From contig CACPHV010000001.1 in NCBI GenBank assembly GCA_902633985.1, forward strand, positions 62,001 to 126,000: 64,000 nt of DNA, read 5' to 3'. Under the pieces are notes generated by a model. It saw only the letters and a list, made by a program, of their open reading frames with translations, ran no database searches and had not been told where the DNA came from. Source of the stretch: an uncultured Pelagibacteraceae bacterium (GTDB lineage: Bacteria > Pseudomonadota > Alphaproteobacteria > Pelagibacterales > Pelagibacteraceae). Below, one piece after another: positions 13,348-24,107 of this stretch. Every line of letters begins with the position of its first letter. Position 1 is the first letter of the stretch. A program made the translations under genes and the position numbers.

Positions 13348-14322
13348 ATGAAAAAAAGCTTTAAACTATTTTTAGCAGCTGCTTTTCTAGTAACTGAATT
13401 TTTTGTTGTAGCTCTTCCATTAATGATTACATCAGCTAAAGCTGATGGTCATCCAATACAAGCAATTACACACGCTGGTTTTGGTGGTGGAACTGACGTT
13501 ACTACTAGAATGATGTTATTAAGAGCAAGAAGAGTCCTTAAGCAAGACATGCAATTAGTAAACAAAAAAGGTGGTGGTGGAGCCGCATCTATGGATTACA
13601 TGATGTCTTTACCAGCTGATGGAAATCATACTTTAACTTGGACAACAGGTCATGCTGTTTCTATGGCTTTAGGAAAAACTAAAGTTAAGCTAAGTGATAT
13701 GCAACCACTTGCTAGAGGAACAGACGACCCTCAATTATTTGTTGTAAATTGTAAAAACGACATTAAAGATGCAAAAAAATTTATTAGCACACAAAAATCA
13801 AAATCGCTAAAATATGGAACTACTCATACTGGTGGTATTGACGATGTTAGTGCAATCGCATTTACAAAAAAAGGTGGATTAAAAGATCCGACAATAGTTG
13901 CGTACAAAGGTGTTGCACCAATTAAAACAAACCTTATCAAAGGAGATATTGATGTAGGTGTTTTAAACCTAGGTGAAGCATTAACTGAAATTAATGAAGG
14001 TAAACTTTGTGTTTCAGTTGTCTTGGCAAATAATAGAATGGCAAAAATCGGAGACTCTCCAACAGCAAAAGAACTAGGTATACCTGTTTCTTTATCTACT
14101 GTTAGGGGTTTCGTAACTAAAAAAGGTGCTCCAGCTGACAGAGTAAAACAATTAGAAGCTGGAATGATGAAAGCTATGAGCCACAACTACTACAAAAATT
14201 TCTTAACAGAAATTGGTCTTGATGAGACAAGTGTTGTAGGTGCAGATGAATGGGGTAAGCAAATGGAAGAAATGCTTGCTGAGATGACTGCGCAGCTTAA
14301 AGCTTTAGGTTACATTAACTAA
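13348..14322 (+). CDS. tctC: Tripartite tricarboxylate transporter binding protein TctC
   Basis: The 324-residue extracytoplasmic solute receptor carries a signal peptide of about 33 residues (ending SAKADG) and the family pattern ITHAGFGGGTDVTTRMML, LVNKKGGGGAASMDYM and KYGTTHTGGIDDVSAI. It would capture an organic acid or other small anion in the periplasm and deliver it to TctAB. It is preceded by AGAGGGA, an excellent ribosome site, and its message is closed by a terminator 48 bases downstream. The ligand is unknown; the TTT family covers citrate, aromatic acids, sugar acids and others. Confidence 0.9.
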   Translation: MKKSFKLFLAAAFLVTEFFVVALPLMITSAKADGHPIQAITHAGFGGGTDVTTRMMLLRARRVLKQDMQLVNKKGGGGAASMDYMMSLPADGNHTLTWTTGHAVSMALGKTKVKLSDMQPLARGTDDPQLFVVNCKNDIKDAKKFISTQKSKSLKYGTTHTGGIDDVSAIAFTKKGGLKDPTIVAYKGVAPIKTNLIKGDIDVGVLNLGEALTEINEGKLCVSVVLANNRMAKIGDSPTAKELGIPVSLSTVRGFVTKKGAPADRVKQLEAGMMKAMSHNYYKNFLTEIGLDETSVVGADEWGKQMEEMLAEMTAQLKALGYIN

Positions 14323-14345
14323 TCTAATTAAAAGTACATTTGAAT

Positions 14346-14852
14346 ATGAAAAATGTACAAAATCAAAAAAGGGCAAACAAAAGTTTGCCCTTTTTTTTTA
14401 GAGATGAGTTTAGAGTTTCTCTTCTAATTATTTTAATATCTGTAGCATTATTAATCACAACTTTTACTTTTGATATTGTTCCTCCAATTTTAAATAGAGG
14501 AATACAACCAGCGACATTCCCAAAAGCGCTCTTAATCTTAATAATAGCAATGACATTATTAATCTGTTATTTGGCAACTAAAAATCCCTGGAAAGTTGAA
14601 AAAAAATTACCAAGATCATTCTTTCTTACTTTATTCAGTTTTGTTATTTTTATAATAGTTTCTAAAACACTTGATTTCTTTTTAGCAATCTCAGCTTTAT
14701 CTATCTTTGTTTCTTATTGTTGGGGAGAAAAAAGATTATTTTATTTATTACTAGTTGGGATTATTTTCCCAATTATTGTTTTTATATTTTTTGAAACCAT
14801 TTTAGGTTTAAGATTTCCACCAGGAATAATTACTAACATTTACTATAGTTAA
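14346..14852 (+). CDS. tctB: Tripartite tricarboxylate transporter small membrane subunit TctB
   Basis: This TctB-type protein has four hydrophobic helices (roughly residues 25-45, 58-77, 92-112 and 135-155) and lies between tctC and tctA, the standard order. I use the ATG at 14346; a TTG six bases upstream is also in frame. The first 18 codons run straight through an intrinsic-terminator hairpin and its T-tract (giving ...SLPFFFRDEF), which is not typical TctB sequence. The actual initiation site is therefore uncertain: the only later candidate before the first helix is a TTG at 14385 inside the hairpin. The tctA gene follows without a gap. Confidence 0.8.
   Translation: MKNVQNQKRANKSLPFFFRDEFRVSLLIILISVALLITTFTFDIVPPILNRGIQPATFPKALLILIIAMTLLICYLATKNPWKVEKKLPRSFFLTLFSFVIFIIVSKTLDFFLAISALSIFVSYCWGEKRLFYLLLVGIIFPIIVFIFFETILGLRFPPGIITNIYYS
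14365..14399 (+). terminator. Intrinsic terminator inside the 5' end of tctB
   Basis: A stem GGGCAAAC/GTTTGCCC with an AAAA loop (14371-14390) is preceded by six As and followed by nine Ts. It would end most transcripts after tctC and leave read-through to supply tctBA. It lies within the predicted tctB reading frame, so ribosomes translating from 14346 could melt it. Confidence 0.92.
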
Positions 14853-16331
14853 ATGGATAATTTATTATTAATGCTAGCACCACTTTTCAGTTCTAAACTA
14901 TTATTAGTTTTATTTTTTGGAACATTATTTGGTTTGATATTAGGTGTGTTACCAGGGTTAGGACCAACAACAGGGGGAGCATTGATCCTACCTTTCACAA
15001 TGACTCTAGATCCATTATCTGCAATTGTTTTATTAACATCTATTTATTGTGCAGGAACCTATGGTGGTGCAATAACTGCTGTACTTATTAATACACCGGG
15101 AACCCCAGCAGCTGCAGCCACTTGTTTAGATGGCTATCCTTTAGCACAAAAAGGTGAAGCTGGAAGAGCTTTAGGTATGGCTACAGTCTCAAGTACTGTT
15201 GGAGGAATTTTTAGTGTAGTCATATTAGTTTTCTTTGCTCCTATATTAGCACAACTTGCTTATGAATTTGGTCAGCCAGAATATTTTGCATTAGCAATAT
15301 TTGGTTTAACAATGCTTGCTTCAATAGGTGAAGGTAGTCCAATTAAAAATTTAATCGCAGGTTCATTTGGAATATTAATTTCTACGGTTGGAAAAGATTT
15401 TATGACTTCAATCGACCGTTTTACTTTTGGGATCAATGAGTTAACTGAAGGAATAGGATTTATACCAGTAGTGGTTGGACTTTTCGCAATGAGTGAAATG
15501 TTAACCCAATCGACTTTAATCAATCAAGTGTTTAACAGAATAGCTTTAAAAGCAATTAAATTACCAAGCAAAGATGATTATAAAAAAACATGGAAAACAA
15601 TTTTAAGATCAAGTGGGATTGGATCATTTATTGGAGTACTGCCTGCAGAAGGTGGAACAGTTGCTTCTTTAATTGGTTATTCTGAGGCTAAGAGATTTTC
15701 AAAAAATCCAGAAGAATTTGGAAAAGGATCTATTGAAGGCATTGCTGGTGCTGAGGCTGCAAATAATGCTGCAACAGGGGGTGCGATGGTTCCAACTTTA
15801 GCTTTAGGTATTCCTGGTAGCGCAACAACAGCGGTTATACTTACAGGATTGATTATTCATGGGGTTAGACCTGGACCAGATTTGTTTAGAGAACAGCCAG
15901 ATTTTTTATATGGAATTTTTGGTGCTATGTTGATTGCCAATATTCTATTTTTTATTTTTGGATTTTTTGGAGCAAAAATATTTGCAAGAATAACTTTAGT
16001 ACCTAACAAGATCTTATGGCCAATGATATTTGCAGTTTCAGTATGTGGAACTTATTCTTTAAATCAATCAATAATTGATGTTTGGATAATGTTATTTTTT
16101 GGAGTGCTAGGTTTTTTTATGAGAAGATATGGTTTTTCAGTTGTTCCAGTTATTATTGGATTAATTTTGGGTGAGTTGGTTGAAGGAACTCTAAGACAAT
16201 CTCTGGTTATATTTGATGGTAATTGGCTAATGTTTTTCACAAGACCAATTGCATTAACATTCTTTATTTTGTCTTTAATTGCTTTAGCTTTTCCTTTATT
16301 AAGATCGAGAAAATTTAAAAAGAAATTATGA
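14853..16331 (+). CDS. tctA: Tripartite tricarboxylate transporter large membrane subunit TctA
   Basis: The 492-residue, roughly 12-helix permease matches TctA. Diagnostic blocks are GLILGVLPGLGPTTGGALILPFT near residue 27-50 (in two adjoining motifs), YGGAITAVLINTPGTPAAAATCLDGYPL, and the repeated half-motif GVLPAEGGTVASLIGYSEAKR with AANNAATGGAMVPTLALGIPGS. The two PG(L/T/S)-containing motifs form the likely transport core. The gene abuts tctB and overlaps the downstream SDR as ATGA, so transporter and dehydrogenase are co-expressed. Confidence 0.93.
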   Translation: MDNLLLMLAPLFSSKLLLVLFFGTLFGLILGVLPGLGPTTGGALILPFTMTLDPLSAIVLLTSIYCAGTYGGAITAVLINTPGTPAAAATCLDGYPLAQKGEAGRALGMATVSSTVGGIFSVVILVFFAPILAQLAYEFGQPEYFALAIFGLTMLASIGEGSPIKNLIAGSFGILISTVGKDFMTSIDRFTFGINELTEGIGFIPVVVGLFAMSEMLTQSTLINQVFNRIALKAIKLPSKDDYKKTWKTILRSSGIGSFIGVLPAEGGTVASLIGYSEAKRFSKNPEEFGKGSIEGIAGAEAANNAATGGAMVPTLALGIPGSATTAVILTGLIIHGVRPGPDLFREQPDFLYGIFGAMLIANILFFIFGFFGAKIFARITLVPNKILWPMIFAVSVCGTYSLNQSIIDVWIMLFFGVLGFFMRRYGFSVVPVIIGLILGELVEGTLRQSLVIFDGNWLMFFTRPIALTFFILSLIALAFPLLRSRKFKKKL

Positions 16332-17077
16332 TTAAGTATGATCTAAATAATCGAGTAGCGGTTGTTACTGGTGGAGCCCAAGGATTTGGTTTAGCAATAA
16401 CCGAAAGGTTTATAGAAGCAGGTGCAAAAGTTGTGATTTGGGATATTGATGACAGAGCAGCTATAGAAGCAATCAACAAAGTAAAATCAGAAGATTTAAG
16501 TCATCAAATCGTAGACGTAACTAATTTTGAAATAGTAAATAAAAATTTAGAAGAAGTAGAAAAAAAATATGGAAAAATAGATATTTTTGTTAATAACGCA
16601 GGTATTGCAGGTATGAATACTACTGTCGCTGAATATCCTTTAGACGAATGGAAAAAAGTAATGAACTTAAATTTAAACTCTGTTTTTTACTGTTGTAAAG
16701 CTGTGGTTCCATTTATGTTAAAAAATGATTATGGAAGAATAGTTAATATTGCATCTATTGCAGGAAAAGAAGGAAACCCAAATGCAAGTGCTTATAGTAC
16801 TTCCAAAGCTGGTGTTATAGGTTTAACTAAGTCATTAGGTAAAGAGTTAGCGCAAAAAAATATAGCTGTAAATTGTGTAACTCCTGCAGCAGCAAAAACA
16901 AGAATTTTTGACCAAATGACAGAGGAACATATTAATTATATGTTATCAAAAATTCCTAGAAATAAATTTGCAAAAGTTGAAGAATTAGCTTCATTAGTAA
17001 CCTGGTTAGCTAGTGAAGAAAATTCATTCTCCACAGCTGCTGTTTTTGATTTGAGTGGTGGAAGGGCAACTTACTAA
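16328..17077 (+). CDS. Short-chain dehydrogenase/reductase (SDR)
   Basis: This 249-residue classical SDR has the cofactor motif VTGGAQGFGLAI (TGxxxGxG), the structural NNAGI near residue 90, the catalytic Ser in IVNIASIAG, and YSTSK holding the Tyr/Lys pair near residue 155. An acidic residue after the second strand (VIWDIDD) suggests NAD preference. Relatives include 3-oxoacyl reductases and 2-keto-3-deoxy sugar-acid dehydrogenases. The ATGA overlap with tctA links it to the imported acid, so oxidation of a hydroxy acid or sugar acid is a reasonable inference. Confidence 0.88.
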   Translation: MIKYDLNNRVAVVTGGAQGFGLAITERFIEAGAKVVIWDIDDRAAIEAINKVKSEDLSHQIVDVTNFEIVNKNLEEVEKKYGKIDIFVNNAGIAGMNTTVAEYPLDEWKKVMNLNLNSVFYCCKAVVPFMLKNDYGRIVNIASIAGKEGNPNASAYSTSKAGVIGLTKSLGKELAQKNIAVNCVTPAAAKTRIFDQMTEEHINYMLSKIPRNKFAKVEELASLVTWLASEENSFSTAAVFDLSGGRATY

Positions 17078-17078
17078 C

Positions 17079-17981
17079 ATGCAAGTAGGTATTGACGTTG
17101 GAGCTACTAAAATTGAAAGTGTAGTACTTGAAGAAGATGGACAAGAAAAACATAGATCTAGAATATTGTGTCCAAAAGATTATACCCAAATTGTAACCGC
17201 AATAAGAGATATACATAAAAAATTAGAACAAGAATTTAAAAAAGAGCTTCCAATTGGAGTTTGCCATCCAGGAGTACACTCTCCTCAAACGGGATTGGTT
17301 AAAAATGCTCCAAATATTACATGGTTAGAAAAAAAACCTTTTCAAAATGATTTACGTAAAGCACTTGGAAAGGAAGTTTTTTGTGAGAACGATGCTAATT
17401 GTTTTGCTTTGTCTGAAGCTATAGATGGATCAGGAAAACATTATAAAATTGTTTATGGTATTATTTTAGGATCTGGTGTTGGTGGTGGATTAGTAATAGA
17501 CAAGAAAATTGTATCTGGCCCTAACGGTGTAGCAGGAGAATGGGGGCATAATCAAATACCATATTTTGCTGCTAAGAAAGAAAAATTTGACTCTAGTAAT
17601 GCACGTGAAGCAGAGATCGAAAGTTTTTTATCAGGTTTGGGACTAGCTAAAAGATTCAATAAAATCTATGGAAAAAATTTAAAAACAAATGAAATTTTTG
17701 AATTAAATAGAAAACATGATTTAGATGCGGAAAGATTTATTGATGATTTCAAAGTTAATTTAGCAATGTCACTTTCAAGTATTATAAATATTTTAGATCC
17801 AGATGCTTTTGTATTTGGAGGTGGTGTTTCAAATGAAATAGATTTTTTACATGAAGTAGATTCTTTGGTTAGAAAATTTGTAATTGGGCGTGAATACGAG
17901 GGTGTCTTTTTAAAACCAAAATTTGGTGACGCTAGTGGTGTTCGTGGTGCAGCAAGACTTGGAAGAAGCGCGACATATTAA
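17079..17981 (+). CDS. ROK-family sugar kinase lacking the zinc-cysteine motif
   Basis: The 300-residue protein has the ROK N-terminal phosphate loop (VGIDVGATKIE), the sugar-site residues CENDANCFALSEA and GIILGSGVGGGLVI, and GEWGHNQIPY. The nearest type is Mak-like fructokinase or glucokinase. Normal ROK kinases follow this His with a CxCGxxGCxE zinc motif. Here that stretch reads KEKFDSSNAREAEIESFLSG, with all three cysteines gone but the final Glu kept. The adenine-region VFGGGVSNEIDF is present. I start at the ATG one base after the SDR stop; an in-frame GTG at 17055 would add eight residues. The substrate is probably a hexose. Confidence 0.85.
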   Translation: MQVGIDVGATKIESVVLEEDGQEKHRSRILCPKDYTQIVTAIRDIHKKLEQEFKKELPIGVCHPGVHSPQTGLVKNAPNITWLEKKPFQNDLRKALGKEVFCENDANCFALSEAIDGSGKHYKIVYGIILGSGVGGGLVIDKKIVSGPNGVAGEWGHNQIPYFAAKKEKFDSSNAREAEIESFLSGLGLAKRFNKIYGKNLKTNEIFELNRKHDLDAERFIDDFKVNLAMSLSSIINILDPDAFVFGGGVSNEIDFLHEVDSLVRKFVIGREYEGVFLKPKFGDASGVRGAARLGRSATY

Positions 17982-18172: not shown

Positions 18173-19429
18173 ATGAAAAAAATAATAATTGCTTTAATTA
18201 CATTAGCATTCACATCTACTTCATCAATTGCAGGACCTAAAATCGAGGTATTGCACTGGTGGACGTCTGGTGGTGAAGCTGCTGCACTTAAAGTTTTAAA
18301 AGATGATTTCGCTGCGAACGGCGGTGAATGGATGGACATGCCAGTAACAGGTGGTGGTGGAGACGCTGCTAACGTTGCTTTAAAAGCAAGAATAGTTGCT
18401 GGAGATCCTCCATCAGCATCTCAAATTAAAGGTCCTACAATTCAAGAGTATGACCAAGAAGGTGTTGTGGCCCCATATAACATTGATGCAATTGCTCAAT
18501 CTGAAGGTTGGGATAAACTTTTAGATCCAATGATTGCTGCTGTACATAAATGTGAAAATAACAGTGGACCATATTGTGCTGCGCCAGTTAACATTCACAG
18601 AATTGATTGGATGTGGGCAAACAAAGCTGTATTTGATGCTAATGGTATTTCAGTTCCAACAACTTGGGATGAAGTAAATGCTGCTGCAGAAAAATTAAAA
18701 GCTGCAGGAATAATTCCATTCGCCCATGGTGGTCAAGCTTGGCAAGATGCTACAGTATTTGAAGCCGTTGCAATGGGTATAGGTGGAAATAACTACTATA
18801 AAAACTGTTATGTGGATCTTAAAGAAAGTTGTTTAAGAAGTGAGACTACAGTTAAAGTTTTTGATCAAATGAGAAAACTTCAAAGCTATACAGATGAAGG
18901 TAGTCCAGGAAGAGACTGGAACGTTGCTACAGGTATGGTAATTGAGGGAAAAGCTGGTTTCCAAATTATGGGTGACTGGGCAAAAGGTGAATTTACAGCT
19001 GCTGGAAAAGTTCCAGGTGTAGATTACTATTGTGCTCCTACTCCTTCAAATAATGGATACTTATACAATGTAGATAGTTTCATATTCTACAAAACTAGTG
19101 ATCCAGAAAAACAAGAAGGTCAAAAACTGTTAGCGAAACTAATGATGGGTAAAAACTTCCAAAAAGTATTTAACCTATACAAAGGTTCAATCCCAGCTAG
19201 ACTAGACGTTCCAATGGATGAGTTTGATAAATGTGCAAAAACTTCTAACTCTGATATTAAAACAGCAGGTGCTAGTGGTGGATTAGTTCCAAGTTTTGCT
19301 CACGGTATGGCTCAAGGTAATACTATGAAAGCTGCCCTACAAGATATCATCACAGAGCACTTTAACTCTGACATGTCATCTGTAGATGCTGCTAACGCTT
19401 TAGCTGACTCAGTTTTAGCTAATATGTAG
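18173..19429 (+). CDS. Glucose/mannose-type ABC transporter binding protein (GtsA-like)
   Basis: This 418-residue solute-binding protein has a signal peptide (cleavage near SSIAG, residue 20). It closely follows the GtsA pattern of pseudomonads: EVLHWWTSGGEAAALKVL, GGGGDAANVALKARIVAGDPPS, QIKGPTIQEYDQEG, FAHGGQAWQDATVFEAVAMG, GRDWNVATGMVIEGKAGFQIMGDWAKGE split over neighbouring blocks. That family binds glucose and sometimes mannose or xylose. Two cysteine pairs may form disulfides. A terminator follows the stop, separating it from the two permeases and the ATPase. Confidence 0.9.
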   Translation: MKKIIIALITLAFTSTSSIAGPKIEVLHWWTSGGEAAALKVLKDDFAANGGEWMDMPVTGGGGDAANVALKARIVAGDPPSASQIKGPTIQEYDQEGVVAPYNIDAIAQSEGWDKLLDPMIAAVHKCENNSGPYCAAPVNIHRIDWMWANKAVFDANGISVPTTWDEVNAAAEKLKAAGIIPFAHGGQAWQDATVFEAVAMGIGGNNYYKNCYVDLKESCLRSETTVKVFDQMRKLQSYTDEGSPGRDWNVATGMVIEGKAGFQIMGDWAKGEFTAAGKVPGVDYYCAPTPSNNGYLYNVDSFIFYKTSDPEKQEGQKLLAKLMMGKNFQKVFNLYKGSIPARLDVPMDEFDKCAKTSNSDIKTAGASGGLVPSFAHGMAQGNTMKAALQDIITEHFNSDMSSVDAANALADSVLANM

Positions 19430-19441
19430 TACATAAAAATT

Positions 19442-19477
19442 AAAAGGCCACTTTTTATTAAGTGGCCTTTTTTTTTA
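19442..19477 (+). terminator. Intrinsic terminator after the GtsA-like gene
   Basis: A 10-bp perfect stem AAAGGCCACT/AGTGGCCTTT with an eight-base loop (19443-19470) runs into a T-tract. It lies 13 bases after the binding-protein stop and ends 26 bases before the permease ATG. Read-through would set permease and ATPase below binding-protein levels. Confidence 0.94.
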
Positions 19478-19502
19478 AATCTTAAAATAAAAAATATTTA
19501 TA

Positions 19503-20378
19503 ATGTTCAAGTGGTTAGAAAAAAATTTACCTAAAATTGTAATGGCTCCAGCTGTTGGTTTGATTGGCTGGTTCGTTTATGGGTTTGTTCTTTGGACTTT
19601 ATATATATCTTTTACAAATTCTAAAATTCTACCAAAGTACGAACTTTGGGGATTTGGACAGTATGAAAAACTTTGGGCATCAAGAAAATGGCTTATTGCA
19701 GTAGATAATTTGCTTATTTTTACAGCACTATTTTTAATCTTCTGTGTTGTTATAGGAATAATTCTTGCAATTTTTTTAGATCAAAAAATCAGAGCAGAGG
19801 GTTTGCTAAGAACGATTTATTTATATCCAATGGCGCTATCTTTTATCGTGACAGGAACAGCTTGGAAATGGATATTAAATCCTACTTTAGGTATCCAAAA
19901 AATGTTTAGAGACTGGGGTTTTGAGAACTTTACCTTTGATTGGTTAGTAGATAGGGAGATGGCCATTTATACAATAGTTATTGCAGGTGTTTGGCAATCG
20001 GCAGGGTTTGTAATGGCACTATTTTTAGCTGGATTAAGGTCAGTAGAAGATGAAATTGTTAAGGCAGCAAAAATAGATGGCGCAAGTTTATTTACAGTTT
20101 ACTGGAAGATTTTACTTCCAATGATGAGACCTGTATTTTTTACAAGTTTTGTAATTTTAGTTCATATATCTATTAAAAGTTACGATTTGATCGTAGCACT
20201 GACACAAGGTGGACCAGGTATATCAACAACTATGCCTGCTTTATATATGACACAAACTGCATTTCATAAAAGCCAAGTTGGTTTATCTGCAGCGAGTGCG
20301 ATGATGATGTTTATGGCTGTAGCAGCTGTGATTATCCCATATTTATATTCAGAATTAAGGAGAGAAAATGCAAGATAG
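19503..20378 (+). CDS. Sugar ABC transporter permease 1 (GtsB/MalF type)
   Basis: The 291-residue inner-membrane protein has six hydrophobic segments and the binding-protein-dependent permease loop EIVKAAKIDGASLFTVYWKILLPMM, i.e. the EAA motif that docks on the ATPase, near residue 185-208. It lies downstream of the GtsA-like binding protein and its terminator, and overlaps the second permease by 11 bases. Family membership (CUT1 sugar transporters) is clear; sugar specificity is inferred from the binding protein. Confidence 0.9.
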   Translation: MFKWLEKNLPKIVMAPAVGLIGWFVYGFVLWTLYISFTNSKILPKYELWGFGQYEKLWASRKWLIAVDNLLIFTALFLIFCVVIGIILAIFLDQKIRAEGLLRTIYLYPMALSFIVTGTAWKWILNPTLGIQKMFRDWGFENFTFDWLVDREMAIYTIVIAGVWQSAGFVMALFLAGLRSVEDEIVKAAKIDGASLFTVYWKILLPMMRPVFFTSFVILVHISIKSYDLIVALTQGGPGISTTMPALYMTQTAFHKSQVGLSAASAMMMFMAVAAVIIPYLYSELRRENAR

Positions 20379-21273
20379 TTTGAAATCTTCTTCTTATCAG
20401 CAATTAGAACAAAAATCTAAATATACAAATATGTTTTTGAGATGGTTTTTATATTTTATTTTAATTCTTTTTGCTTCTTATTTTATTTTTCCACTTTACG
20501 TGATGGTTGTTACTTCGTTAAAGACAATGGAAGAGATCCGTCAAGGAACACTTTTAAGTTGGCCAAACGGATTAAATTTGGAATCTTGGGCTGTAGCGTG
20601 GGGTGGTAGAGGATATGGAGCTGGTGATACTTTTTTAAGACCATATTTTTGGAATTCAATCAAGATGGTTGTACCAGCAGTATTTTTTTCAACATTTATT
20701 GGAGCGATGACAGGTTATGTTTTAACTAAATGGAGATTTAAAGGAGATCAGTGGGTTTTCCTTTTTTTATTGTTTGGATGTTTCATACCATTTCAAGCAA
20801 TATTGCTACCAATGGCCAGAACCCTTGGAGTATTAGGAATTTCAAATTCAGTAATTGGGTTAGTTTTAGTTCATACAGTTTATGGAATACCTTTTACAAC
20901 ATTATTTTTTAGAAATTATTATATTTCTGTTCCAACAGAATTAGTTAAAGCTGCCAGAATAGATGGAGCCGGGTTTTTTAAAATATTTTTCAAAATTTTA
21001 CTTCCAATATCAGCACCAATTATTGTCGTAACAGTAATTTGGCAGTTCACACAAATATGGAATGATTTTTTATTTGGATCAACTTTCTCATTTGGAGAAG
21101 CAGCACCTATACAAGTAGCATTAAACAATATGGTTTTATCAAGCACAAGTGTGAAAGAATATAATGTAGATATGGCTTCAGCTATTATAGCAGGTATTCC
21201 AACACTTATAGTTTATGTATTAGCGGGTAAATATTTTATTAGAGGATTAACTTCAGGAGCAGTGAAAGGATAA
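20368..21273 (+). CDS. Sugar ABC transporter permease 2 (GtsC/MalG type)
   Basis: This 301-residue partner permease has an N-terminal cytoplasmic stretch, six membrane helices, and the EAA loop ELVKAARIDGAGFFKIFFKILLPISAP near residue 190-215. The FPLYVMVVTSLKTMEEI and TQIWNDFLFGSTFS segments are typical of MalG-class subunits. Its ATG lies inside the 3' end of the first permease, consistent with coupled translation for a 1:1 heterodimer. The ATPase follows after two bases. Confidence 0.9.
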   Translation: MQDSLKSSSYQQLEQKSKYTNMFLRWFLYFILILFASYFIFPLYVMVVTSLKTMEEIRQGTLLSWPNGLNLESWAVAWGGRGYGAGDTFLRPYFWNSIKMVVPAVFFSTFIGAMTGYVLTKWRFKGDQWVFLFLLFGCFIPFQAILLPMARTLGVLGISNSVIGLVLVHTVYGIPFTTLFFRNYYISVPTELVKAARIDGAGFFKIFFKILLPISAPIIVVTVIWQFTQIWNDFLFGSTFSFGEAAPIQVALNNMVLSSTSVKEYNVDMASAIIAGIPTLIVYVLAGKYFIRGLTSGAVKG

Positions 21274-21275
21274 AA

Positions 21276-22370
21276 ATGAAAACGTTAAAAATTGAAGAAC
21301 TATCAAAAAACTTTGGATCGACTGAGGTTTTAAAAAAAATTAATTTAGAAATAGATGAAGGAAATTTCCTAGTTCTTTTAGGACCATCTGGATGTGGAAA
21401 ATCAACTTTATTAAATATTATTGCAGGATTAGAAACAATTAATGAGGGTGATGTTTTTATTGATGATTATAATGTCAGCAAAGTAGAGCCGAAGGACCGT
21501 AATATTGCTATGGTTTTTCAATCTTACGCTTTATATCCATCTATGAATGTTAAGGAGAATATGATTTTTGGTCTTAAACAGGCAAAAACATCAAAGGAAA
21601 AAATACAAGAACAGCTAGAAAAAGTCTCAAAATTTCTACAGGTAGATCAATTGTTGGAAAGAAAACCTTCTCAATTATCTGGGGGACAACGACAACGTGT
21701 TGCTATTGGTAGAGCTCTCGTAAGAGAGCCAAGAATTTTTTTGTTTGACGAACCTTTATCTAACTTAGATGCAAAGCTACGTGTTGAAATGAGGAGAGAA
21801 ATTAAAAAACTTCATCAACAGCTAAAAACAACGGTTGTTTATGTGACCCATGATCAAACAGAGGCAATGAGTTTGGGTACTAATATTGCAATTATGAATC
21901 ATGGAGTAATTCAACAAAATGATACACCTGAAAAGATTTATAATAAGCCAAGCAATACTTTTGTTGCAGACTTTATTGGGTCACCATCAATGAATCTTGT
22001 TAAGGGAATCTTAAAAGAAAATTCAGGAGAATTATTATTCACAGTAAGTGGATCAAATTTAGAAATTCCAATAAAAGATTATGATTTTAAAAATAAATCA
22101 AATTTAAATAATAAAGAAGTTTTCTTTGGTATTAGACCAGAACACATTTTCTTCAAAAAATTTAATGAAAGTGATTTTGAAATTAATTTAAGAGCAGATC
22201 TTAGTGAGTACATAGGTCATGAGCAAATAATGACATTTGATTATGCAAATCAAGAAGTTTTAGCTAAATTTCCATCTACAATTAAAATAGATTTGGGGAA
22301 AGAAACAAAATTATACTTTGATTTAACACAATCATCTTTATTTGACGCTCAAACAGAGGAAAGAATATAA
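21276..22370 (+). CDS. Sugar ABC transporter ATPase (UgpC/MalK/GtsD type)
   Basis: The 364-residue ATPase has Walker A GPSGCGKST (residues 36-44), Q-loop VFQSYALYPSMNV, signature LSGGQRQRVAIGRAL, Walker B IFLFDEPLSNLDAKLR and switch His in YVTHDQTEAMSL. A C-terminal TOBE/OB-fold of about 120 residues, starting near FIGSPSMNLV with FGIRPEHIFF, is typical of CUT1 ATPases, which can serve several sugar transporters. It is preceded by GGA near the start and is part of the gts-like operon. Confidence 0.93.
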   Translation: MKTLKIEELSKNFGSTEVLKKINLEIDEGNFLVLLGPSGCGKSTLLNIIAGLETINEGDVFIDDYNVSKVEPKDRNIAMVFQSYALYPSMNVKENMIFGLKQAKTSKEKIQEQLEKVSKFLQVDQLLERKPSQLSGGQRQRVAIGRALVREPRIFLFDEPLSNLDAKLRVEMRREIKKLHQQLKTTVVYVTHDQTEAMSLGTNIAIMNHGVIQQNDTPEKIYNKPSNTFVADFIGSPSMNLVKGILKENSGELLFTVSGSNLEIPIKDYDFKNKSNLNNKEVFFGIRPEHIFFKKFNESDFEINLRADLSEYIGHEQIMTFDYANQEVLAKFPSTIKIDLGKETKLYFDLTQSSLFDAQTEERI

Positions 22371-22371
22371 T

Positions 22372-23133
22372 ATGAAAGTAAAATATTCAGATTTAAAAAA
22401 TAAAAGAATATTTGTAACTGGTGGAGCTTCAGGGATTGGGGCATCAATCGTTGAGCATTTTTGTGAGCAAGGAAGTGAAGTTCATTTTGTTGATATTAAT
22501 TTAAAAGAAACAAAGAAATTATTAAACAAAATAAAAAAAAATAAATTTAGATTACCAACTTTTATTGAGTGTAATTTATTAGATATCAATAAATTAGAAA
22601 AAACAATCAAAAATATTATTGCAAAAAAAGGTCCCATACATGTTTTAATTAATAACGCTGCCAATGATGATAGACACACAACAGATCAGGTGGATGAAAA
22701 ATATTGGGAAAATAGAATGGCAATAAACTTAAAACATTATTTTTTTGCAGCTAAAGCTGTGGTTAAATCTATGAAAAGAAAGAAAGCTGGCTCGATTGTA
22801 AATTTGAGTTCAGTCTCATGGATGTTGGGAGAAGGAGATAAAGTGGTTTATGAAACTGCTAAATCTGCTGTTGTAGGTTTAACAAGATCATTTGCACAAG
22901 AGTATGGGAAATATAATATCAGAACAAATTCAGTTGTACCTGGTTCAATTGCAACTGAAAGACAAATTAAACATTGGTTAACACCAAAATATAAAAAGCT
23001 TATCTTGGACAGCCAAGCTTTAAAAAGACAGTTAAAACCAAACGATGTAGCTCAGTTAGTGATGTTTTTAGCATCAGATCAATCATCAGGATGTACAAAA
23101 CAAAGCTTTATCGTTGACGGTGGTATAACTTGA
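22372..23133 (+). CDS. SDR-family sugar/alcohol dehydrogenase
   Basis: This 253-residue SDR has FVTGGASGIGASIVEHF at the cofactor site, an aspartate following the second strand (HFVDINL, NAD-type), INNAAND, the catalytic Ser in VNLSSVSWM, and YETAK with the Tyr/Lys pair. I choose the ATG at 22372, one base after the ATPase stop, over a TTG at 22342 that would overlap the ATPase by ten codons. Operon position with a hexose transporter and an aldose epimerase suggests an aldose or sugar-lactone-forming dehydrogenase, by inference. Confidence 0.87.
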   Translation: MKVKYSDLKNKRIFVTGGASGIGASIVEHFCEQGSEVHFVDINLKETKKLLNKIKKNKFRLPTFIECNLLDINKLEKTIKNIIAKKGPIHVLINNAANDDRHTTDQVDEKYWENRMAINLKHYFFAAKAVVKSMKRKKAGSIVNLSSVSWMLGEGDKVVYETAKSAVVGLTRSFAQEYGKYNIRTNSVVPGSIATERQIKHWLTPKYKKLILDSQALKRQLKPNDVAQLVMFLASDQSSGCTKQSFIVDGGIT

Positions 23134-23138
23134 TCTAG

Positions 23139-24107
23139 GTGAAAGTTGAAAGCTTTAAAATTCAAAATAAACATCTAAGAGTTCAAACTCTTAATTACGG
23201 TGCCACTATTTTTGAAGTTTATCACAAAAAAAAGAAAATAAATTTAATTTTAAATTTAGGATCAAAACAAAACTATCGTTATAAACATCCAAGTGTTGGA
23301 TCAACTTGTGGAAGATATGCGGGTAGAATTTCCAATTCAAAATTAAAGGTAGGTAATAAAAAATTTATTTTGAATTCAAATGAGGGAAAAAATACACTAC
23401 ATGGTGGTAAAGTTGGTTTCTCAATCCTACCATGGAAAAAATTAAATCAAACAAAAGATAAAATAGTATATCAAATCCATTCAGCAGATAAAGATCAAGG
23501 CTTTCCAGGCAATTTAATTGTCAATTGTACTTATAAATTAAGAAACAAATTTTTGATTATAAAATATGAATACAGATCTAATAAAAGCACTCATGTTAAT
23601 TTAACTAATCATAGTTATTGGAATTTAGAAAAAAATAAAAAAAATATGATTTATAATCATGAGTTAAAATTAAACTCATCTAAATATCTTCAAATAAATA
23701 AAAATCTAATCCCAACTGGTAGATTCAAAAATGTAAAAAAATCTATTTACGATTTTTTAAATTTTGAAAACATTGGCAAAAAATTAAATTATTTTAAAAC
23801 TAAAAACCTCAAAAATAAATTTAAAGGTTTTGACACAACTTTTGTTGTAAAAAAAAACATTAGAAATTATGTTGGAACTTTAAAAAATAATAATACTAAT
23901 ATTCAAGTTGATTTTTTTTCAAATTTACCTGGTGTTCAACTTTATTCAGCACAAAATTTAAATTACAAAAAAAAATTATTTCCTTACCAGGGTGTTTGTT
24001 TAGAAACTCAACACTTTCCTGATGCACCTAATAAAAAAAATTTTCCAAGTACTTTAATTAAACCTAATAAAAGGTATATATGCTTTACAAAAATTAAAAT
24101 TAGTTAA
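23139..24107 (+). CDS. Aldose 1-epimerase (GalM family)
   Basis: The 322-residue protein matches galactose mutarotases. The pattern TLNYGATIFEVYH, GSTCGRYAGRISNSK, NTLHGGKVGF (first catalytic His), LTNHSYWNL (second catalytic His) and the late catalytic Glu in GVCLETQHFPDAPNK are all present in order. It would interconvert alpha and beta anomers of the imported hexose so the adjacent dehydrogenase can use it. It starts with GTG five bases after the SDR stop. Codon use is strongly A/T-biased with many Lys and Asn. Confidence 0.92.
   Translation: MKVESFKIQNKHLRVQTLNYGATIFEVYHKKKKINLILNLGSKQNYRYKHPSVGSTCGRYAGRISNSKLKVGNKKFILNSNEGKNTLHGGKVGFSILPWKKLNQTKDKIVYQIHSADKDQGFPGNLIVNCTYKLRNKFLIIKYEYRSNKSTHVNLTNHSYWNLEKNKKNMIYNHELKLNSSKYLQINKNLIPTGRFKNVKKSIYDFLNFENIGKKLNYFKTKNLKNKFKGFDTTFVVKKNIRNYVGTLKNNNTNIQVDFFSNLPGVQLYSAQNLNYKKKLFPYQGVCLETQHFPDAPNKKNFPSTLIKPNKRYICFTKIKIS

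Follow-up and report, generated by a model that had tools for sequence, protein, structure and literature searches.

Canonical ROK sugar kinases carry a zinc motif, CxCGxxGCx(E/D), and in NagK the sugar ligands are S78, N104, D105, E154, H157, and D187, with H157 also binding the zinc (PMC10031466). Mutation of the cysteines inactivated the glucokinase of Bacillus subtilis, as recounted in PMC5458393. The same paper describes zinc-free ROK kinases, namely FnNanK, LmNanK, and the NanK of Staphylococcus aureus, and a review (PMC10017367) reports that zinc-free NanKs are catalytic and that kinetics did not track the presence of zinc. A ROK-annotated polyphosphate glucokinase of Methylomonas is also active without CXCGXXGCXE (PMC6406325). 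Here we describe a ROK-family kinase without the zinc motif, encoded in a stretch of 64,000 nucleotides (the window) from an uncultured Pelagibacteraceae bacterium of the SAR11 order (contig CACPHV010000001.1, positions 62,001 to 126,000). Our literature search, limited to one paper collection, found no paper joining SAR11 with the ROK family.

The window kinase matches the Pfam ROK profile over its full length (PF00480; residues 3 to 294, 2e-64, 218 bits against a cut-off of 22.9). It keeps the ATP motif DxGxT (D6-x-G8-x-T10-K11), N104-D105 with the catalytic aspartate D105, the GSGVGGG stretch, the ExGH motif (E154-x-G156-H157), and the loop-closing glutamate E181, and it has none of the three cysteines of the zinc motif. 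N104, D105, E154, and H157 have the same numbers as in NagK, E181 aligns with D187, and all five residues are invariant across the nine sequences of alignment A1. The sequence-only reading had described a ROK kinase that lacks the zinc-binding cysteines while retaining its ATP and sugar residues, and the open reading frame, the Pfam match, and the alignments bear this out. The top NCBIfam model is fructokinase PRK09557, at 281 bits where the cut-off is 443, and the protein does not score as a NanK (91 and 72 bits against curated NanK cut-offs of 283 and 450). Because the zinc motif is also missing from accepted family members, FnNanK and SaNanK, the window kinase is, by its sequence, to be filed under a zinc-free ROK branch rather than with the canonical zinc ROKs.

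We consider it probable, from the comparisons below and a predicted structure, that the window protein is an intact, working, ATP-dependent ROK sugar kinase nearest the fructokinase (Mak)-like group and that it folds without a structural zinc. ATP would bind the small domain, D105 would act as the catalytic aspartate, and the sugar would be held by N104, D105, E154, H157, and E181. The former zinc loop would be positioned by ordinary protein contacts, and in this way zinc could have become dispensable. The presumed job is to phosphorylate a sugar handled by the surrounding cluster of short-chain dehydrogenase/reductase (SDR) and transporter genes, as a cysteine-bearing enzyme at the same operon position would do in relatives.

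In a first search of 61 genomes, 14 (among them the window's) had ROK genes, at 15 loci in total. Besides the window's own locus, ten (L004-L006, L008-L012, L014, and L015) belong to the window's group and are 53 to 98% identical to it; the cysteine-bearing loci are L001, L002, and L013, with CYCGKKGCIE, and L003, with a C-x4-C variant. We then have a census of 273 distinct ROKs in which the window's group is defined by the pair C62-H63 (122 sequences) and was gathered mainly with the group's own queries, so that its count demonstrates consistency and not frequency. At most one loop cysteine occurs in 124 of the 273 and three or four in the other 149. C62-H63 is found in 122 of the 124 low-cysteine proteins, L280 and L283 being the exceptions, and in none of the 149. 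Within the window's group, 120 sequences have no loop cysteine (among them L014, a fragment that lacks the loop) and two have one, and outside it 149 of 151 have at least three. A hand-picked, nonrandom sample of 90 proteobacterial ROKs from the listed matches (30 loci, 40 more, and 20) contains CxC..C in 87, a variant in one, and no such cysteines in two, again L280 and L283. A separate subfamily with re-spaced cysteines, C-x4-C (mostly C-x4-CGRxLCAE), occurs in SAR11 and in two other alphaproteobacterial genomes; its members (L003 at 1504-2394, L119-L122, L124, L125, L140, L145, L149, and L150) keep all three cysteines.

The history of the loss was read from a quickly built maximum-likelihood tree containing 84 ROKs, made with the loop columns removed and with the NanKs not among them; five long-branch rows dropped from structure alignment A3 were retained in it. 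The 19 cysteine-free SAR11 sequences form one side of a single branch (SH-like approximate likelihood ratio test, 100) among Mak-like ROKs with cysteines, their exact place there being unsure, as the clade's branch is long (0.83) and 36 of the 81 inner branches are weak. By this tree, cysteine loss is the mark of one Pelagibacteraceae clade, with one loss followed by erosion. Nine cysteine-free sequences (L126-L131, L134, L135, and L137) have also lost the histidine of ExGH (EWSLN for EWGHN) together with C102, and in five others (L132, L133, L136, L138, and L303) a deletion has taken out the bulk of the former zinc loop. Such losses in sub-branches, of H157, of most of the loop, or of E181 to glutamine, are to be expected once zinc ceased to matter. 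L280 and L283, which are other alphaproteobacterial ROKs without the zinc cysteines, stand apart from the SAR11 clade in the tree and so probably lost them separately.

Some close relatives of the window's bacterium have a cysteine-type ROK in the same operon slot. At six of 26 cysteine-type SAR11 loci (L096, L097, L098, L099, L106, and L109) the ROK gene starts 1 to 2 bases past the same SDR gene, the same junction as in the window; the SDR is 78 to 96% identical to the window's, whereas the ROK is only 41 to 43% identical and carries CYCGKKGC. In L109 the ROK (42% identical) is flanked by the SDR (96% over the 41% that is present) and by the same binding protein (99%). At the DNA level, identity in this locus is about 80% in the SDR gene and 40 to 67% per 60 bases in the kinase gene and the spacer that follows; in the binding-protein gene it is mostly 85 to 97%. 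The L109 contig stops inside the SDR gene, of which it holds a short stretch only; the five other slot loci have the whole gene. By score, 132 of 397 SAR11-order genomes have the cysteine-free type, 23 the cysteine type, and none both, where cysteine-free means an A1 score of at least 313 bits (direct reading of the motif in 44 of the 132 showed all 44 to be cysteine-free), the cysteine type was read in all 23, and 11 of the 166 ROK-bearing genomes belong to neither type. The exchange at one slot and the absence by score of genomes with both types make it the simplest reading of these sequences that both enzymes perform the same job, and for the same reasons zinc looks dispensable for the job of the window kinase.

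The exchange also bears on an alternative offered by the sequence-only reading, that the loop was remodeled to accept another sugar. In its favor, the loop adjoins the sugar pocket, the residues C62-H63 and C102 lie close in sequence to pocket residues and track the cysteine loss, and sub-branches have changed H157 or E181 or deleted most of the loop. Yet the window protein retains N104, D105, E154, H157, and E181, a cysteine-type enzyme stands between the same neighbors in relatives, and NanK kinetics reportedly did not follow the presence of the zinc site (PMC10017367). We regard an altered substrate as possible but doubtful: the slot swap weakens it for the window's branch. A bolder proposal has the metal site moved, with C62-H63, C102, and H157 together making up a thiol/imidazole site newly arisen at the sugar pocket, for metal binding or redox sensing; it seems very unlikely to us. 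The presence of C62-H63 in 122 of the 124 low-cysteine ROKs and in none of the 149 others speaks for it. All nine sequences with leucine for H157 have also lost C102, apparently in one sub-branch and hence as one event, and two other sequences lost C102 yet keep H157.

The sequence-only reading had further suggested a zinc-free adaptation, useful in metal-poor ocean water; on such an explanation the cysteines would have been dropped since zinc is scarce in the open ocean. ZnuA-family uptake is about equally frequent with either ROK type (120 of 132 cysteine-free genomes against 20 of 23 of the cysteine type; Fisher p 0.47), a weak test, as the genomes are incomplete, related, and single-cell and the Pfam family is possibly broader and may take in other metals. 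The family matches 317 of the 397 genomes, the window's own among them. znuA was found in half of the SAR11 genomes studied in PMC4771312, where high-affinity zinc uptake is presented as an exception to the minimized metal uptake of SAR11. Members of the same SAR11 genus also have cysteine-type ROKs, six of which occupy the slot described above, and a C-x4-C ROK exists alongside a cysteine-free ROK in five genomes (G024, G070, G165, G326, and G418, the cysteine-free partner being assigned by score in the last three). The window's genome encodes a ribosomal protein L31 (locus L306) that is cysteine-free as well, which would fit zinc sparing; cysteine-free L31 is common in Alphaproteobacteria, and we do not count it as evidence. 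L31 was the only marker of its kind recovered, as L36, L33, and L32 were not found in the window's incomplete genome. A zinc-sparing origin is thus unlikely and not favored, and a lost metal motif in SAR11 should not be taken as metal thrift.

A decaying or noncatalytic copy would also lack the signature motif, and one cysteine-free copy (L301, in genome G330) is apparently broken, its match crossing three in-frame stops and its open reading frame match ending at 259 amino acids. However, all 80 loci from named Pelagibacteraceae or Pelagibacterales genomes found with the window's group are full length and free of loop cysteines, and the catalytic and sugar residues are invariant in alignment A1. 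When the window gene is compared with five relatives, the ratio of nonsynonymous to synonymous substitution rates (dN/dS) comes to 0.07 to 0.14 for the whole gene and 0.03 to 0.25 for the loop, values that are rough because dS exceeds 1 in four of the five pairs. Given the 80 full-length loci and the low dN/dS, we reject decay, to which we give almost no credence; a decayed copy beside cysteine-bearing close homologues, which would have undone the sequence-only reading, was looked for and is not what the 80 closest named loci show.

An AlphaFold2 model built from a 79-sequence alignment has a mean predicted local distance difference test score (pLDDT) of 94.1, with residues 161 to 180 at 78 to 86. 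It has the ROK fold (Z 36.1 to 4db3, root mean square deviation 2.1, 295 aligned residues); its best PDB matches are of the NagK type (Z 36.1), and the zinc-free FnNanK structure 5nck comes ninth (Z 31.4). Because 60 of the 79 sequences come from outside the cysteine-free clade and nearly all of these bear the motif, the model speaks for the fold; it does not establish that the loop can keep its place without zinc, and it is silent on activity. An earlier model from nine close sequences was discarded (pLDDT 63.7, with blocks in 141 to 180 at 28 to 35).

Several observations weigh against a working, zinc-free kinase that does the job of the cysteine type. Twenty of the 26 cysteine-type loci are off the exact slot: in 15 the kinase lies 1054 bases on, about one gene further (an aldo/keto reductase in L189, the one locus in which the gap was read), and five have no SDR in the available flank. 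A shared slot suggests the same substrate and is no proof of it. Parts of the window's group show drift in the sugar pocket, with leucine for H157 in nine and glutamine for E181 in eight of 122 sequences. The broken copy in G330, the roughness of the dN/dS values, and the unsure place of the clade in the tree count on the same side. With two evolved enzymes that close relatives have exchanged at a single operon slot, the worth of the structural zinc of ROK kinases becomes testable.

The kinase gene and its neighbors are listed below. The distance from the SDR stop to the kinase start is 1 to 5 bases in the 80 named-genome loci (L016-L095). The gene after the kinase encodes a binding protein of the window's type in 67 of these 80 and a different ABC ATPase, with no such binding protein, in 12; neither is shown in one.

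Table. Features of the kinase gene and its surroundings in the window.
Feature	Coordinates	Strand	Basis or remark
tctC-tctB-tctA tripartite tricarboxylate-type transporter, upstream	13348..16331	+	Pfam TctC, TctB, TctA
SDR dehydrogenase	16328..17077	+	Stop 1 base ahead of kinase start
ROK-family sugar kinase without zinc motif	17079..17981	+	300 amino acids, ATG start; Pfam ROK 2e-64
C62-H63 (CHPG), accompanies cysteine-free loop	17262..17267	+	122/124 low-cysteine ROKs
C102, shortly ahead of N104-D105	17382..17384	+	Cysteine in 111/122 of the window's group
H157 of ExGH, retained	17547..17549	+	Zinc and sugar ligand in NagK (PMC10031466)
Residues 171-181, DSSNAREAEIE replacing CxCGxxGCxE	17589..17621	+	Alignments; E181 is the kept sugar-side glutamate
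Sugar-type ATP-binding cassette (ABC) transporter: binding protein, two permeases, ATPase	18173..22370	+	Pfam SBP_bac_1, BPD_transp_1 (two), ABC_tran with MalK OB fold
SDR nearest D-xylose 1-dehydrogenase, and aldose 1-epimerase	22372..24107	+	SDR 318 bits, cut-off 400

Compared with known systems, the window kinase differs from its best model, fructokinase Mak, by a score below the cut-off and by the missing zinc cysteines. The Methylomonas glucokinase resembles it in lacking the motif and is active (PMC6406325), and differs in being polyphosphate dependent; our tree does not include it. The NanKs of Fusobacterium nucleatum (5nck) and S. aureus (6q26) are likewise ROK kinases without the zinc motif (PMC5458393 and PMC10017367), and FnNanK retains the GH histidine, as the window kinase does. 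In sequence, however, the window kinase is far from FnNanK (79 bits with 5nck, compared with 147 for 2ap1), and it differs from both NanKs in falling among cysteine-bearing Mak-like ROKs and in having a loop of nearly full length. From this placement, in a tree that does not include the NanKs, we infer that the motif was probably lost in the window's clade independently of the NanK losses. Relative to these systems, three things are new here: a loss of the motif within the Mak-like line that is probably independent, the C62-H63 signature that goes with this loss, and a natural exchange with a cysteine-type enzyme at one slot.
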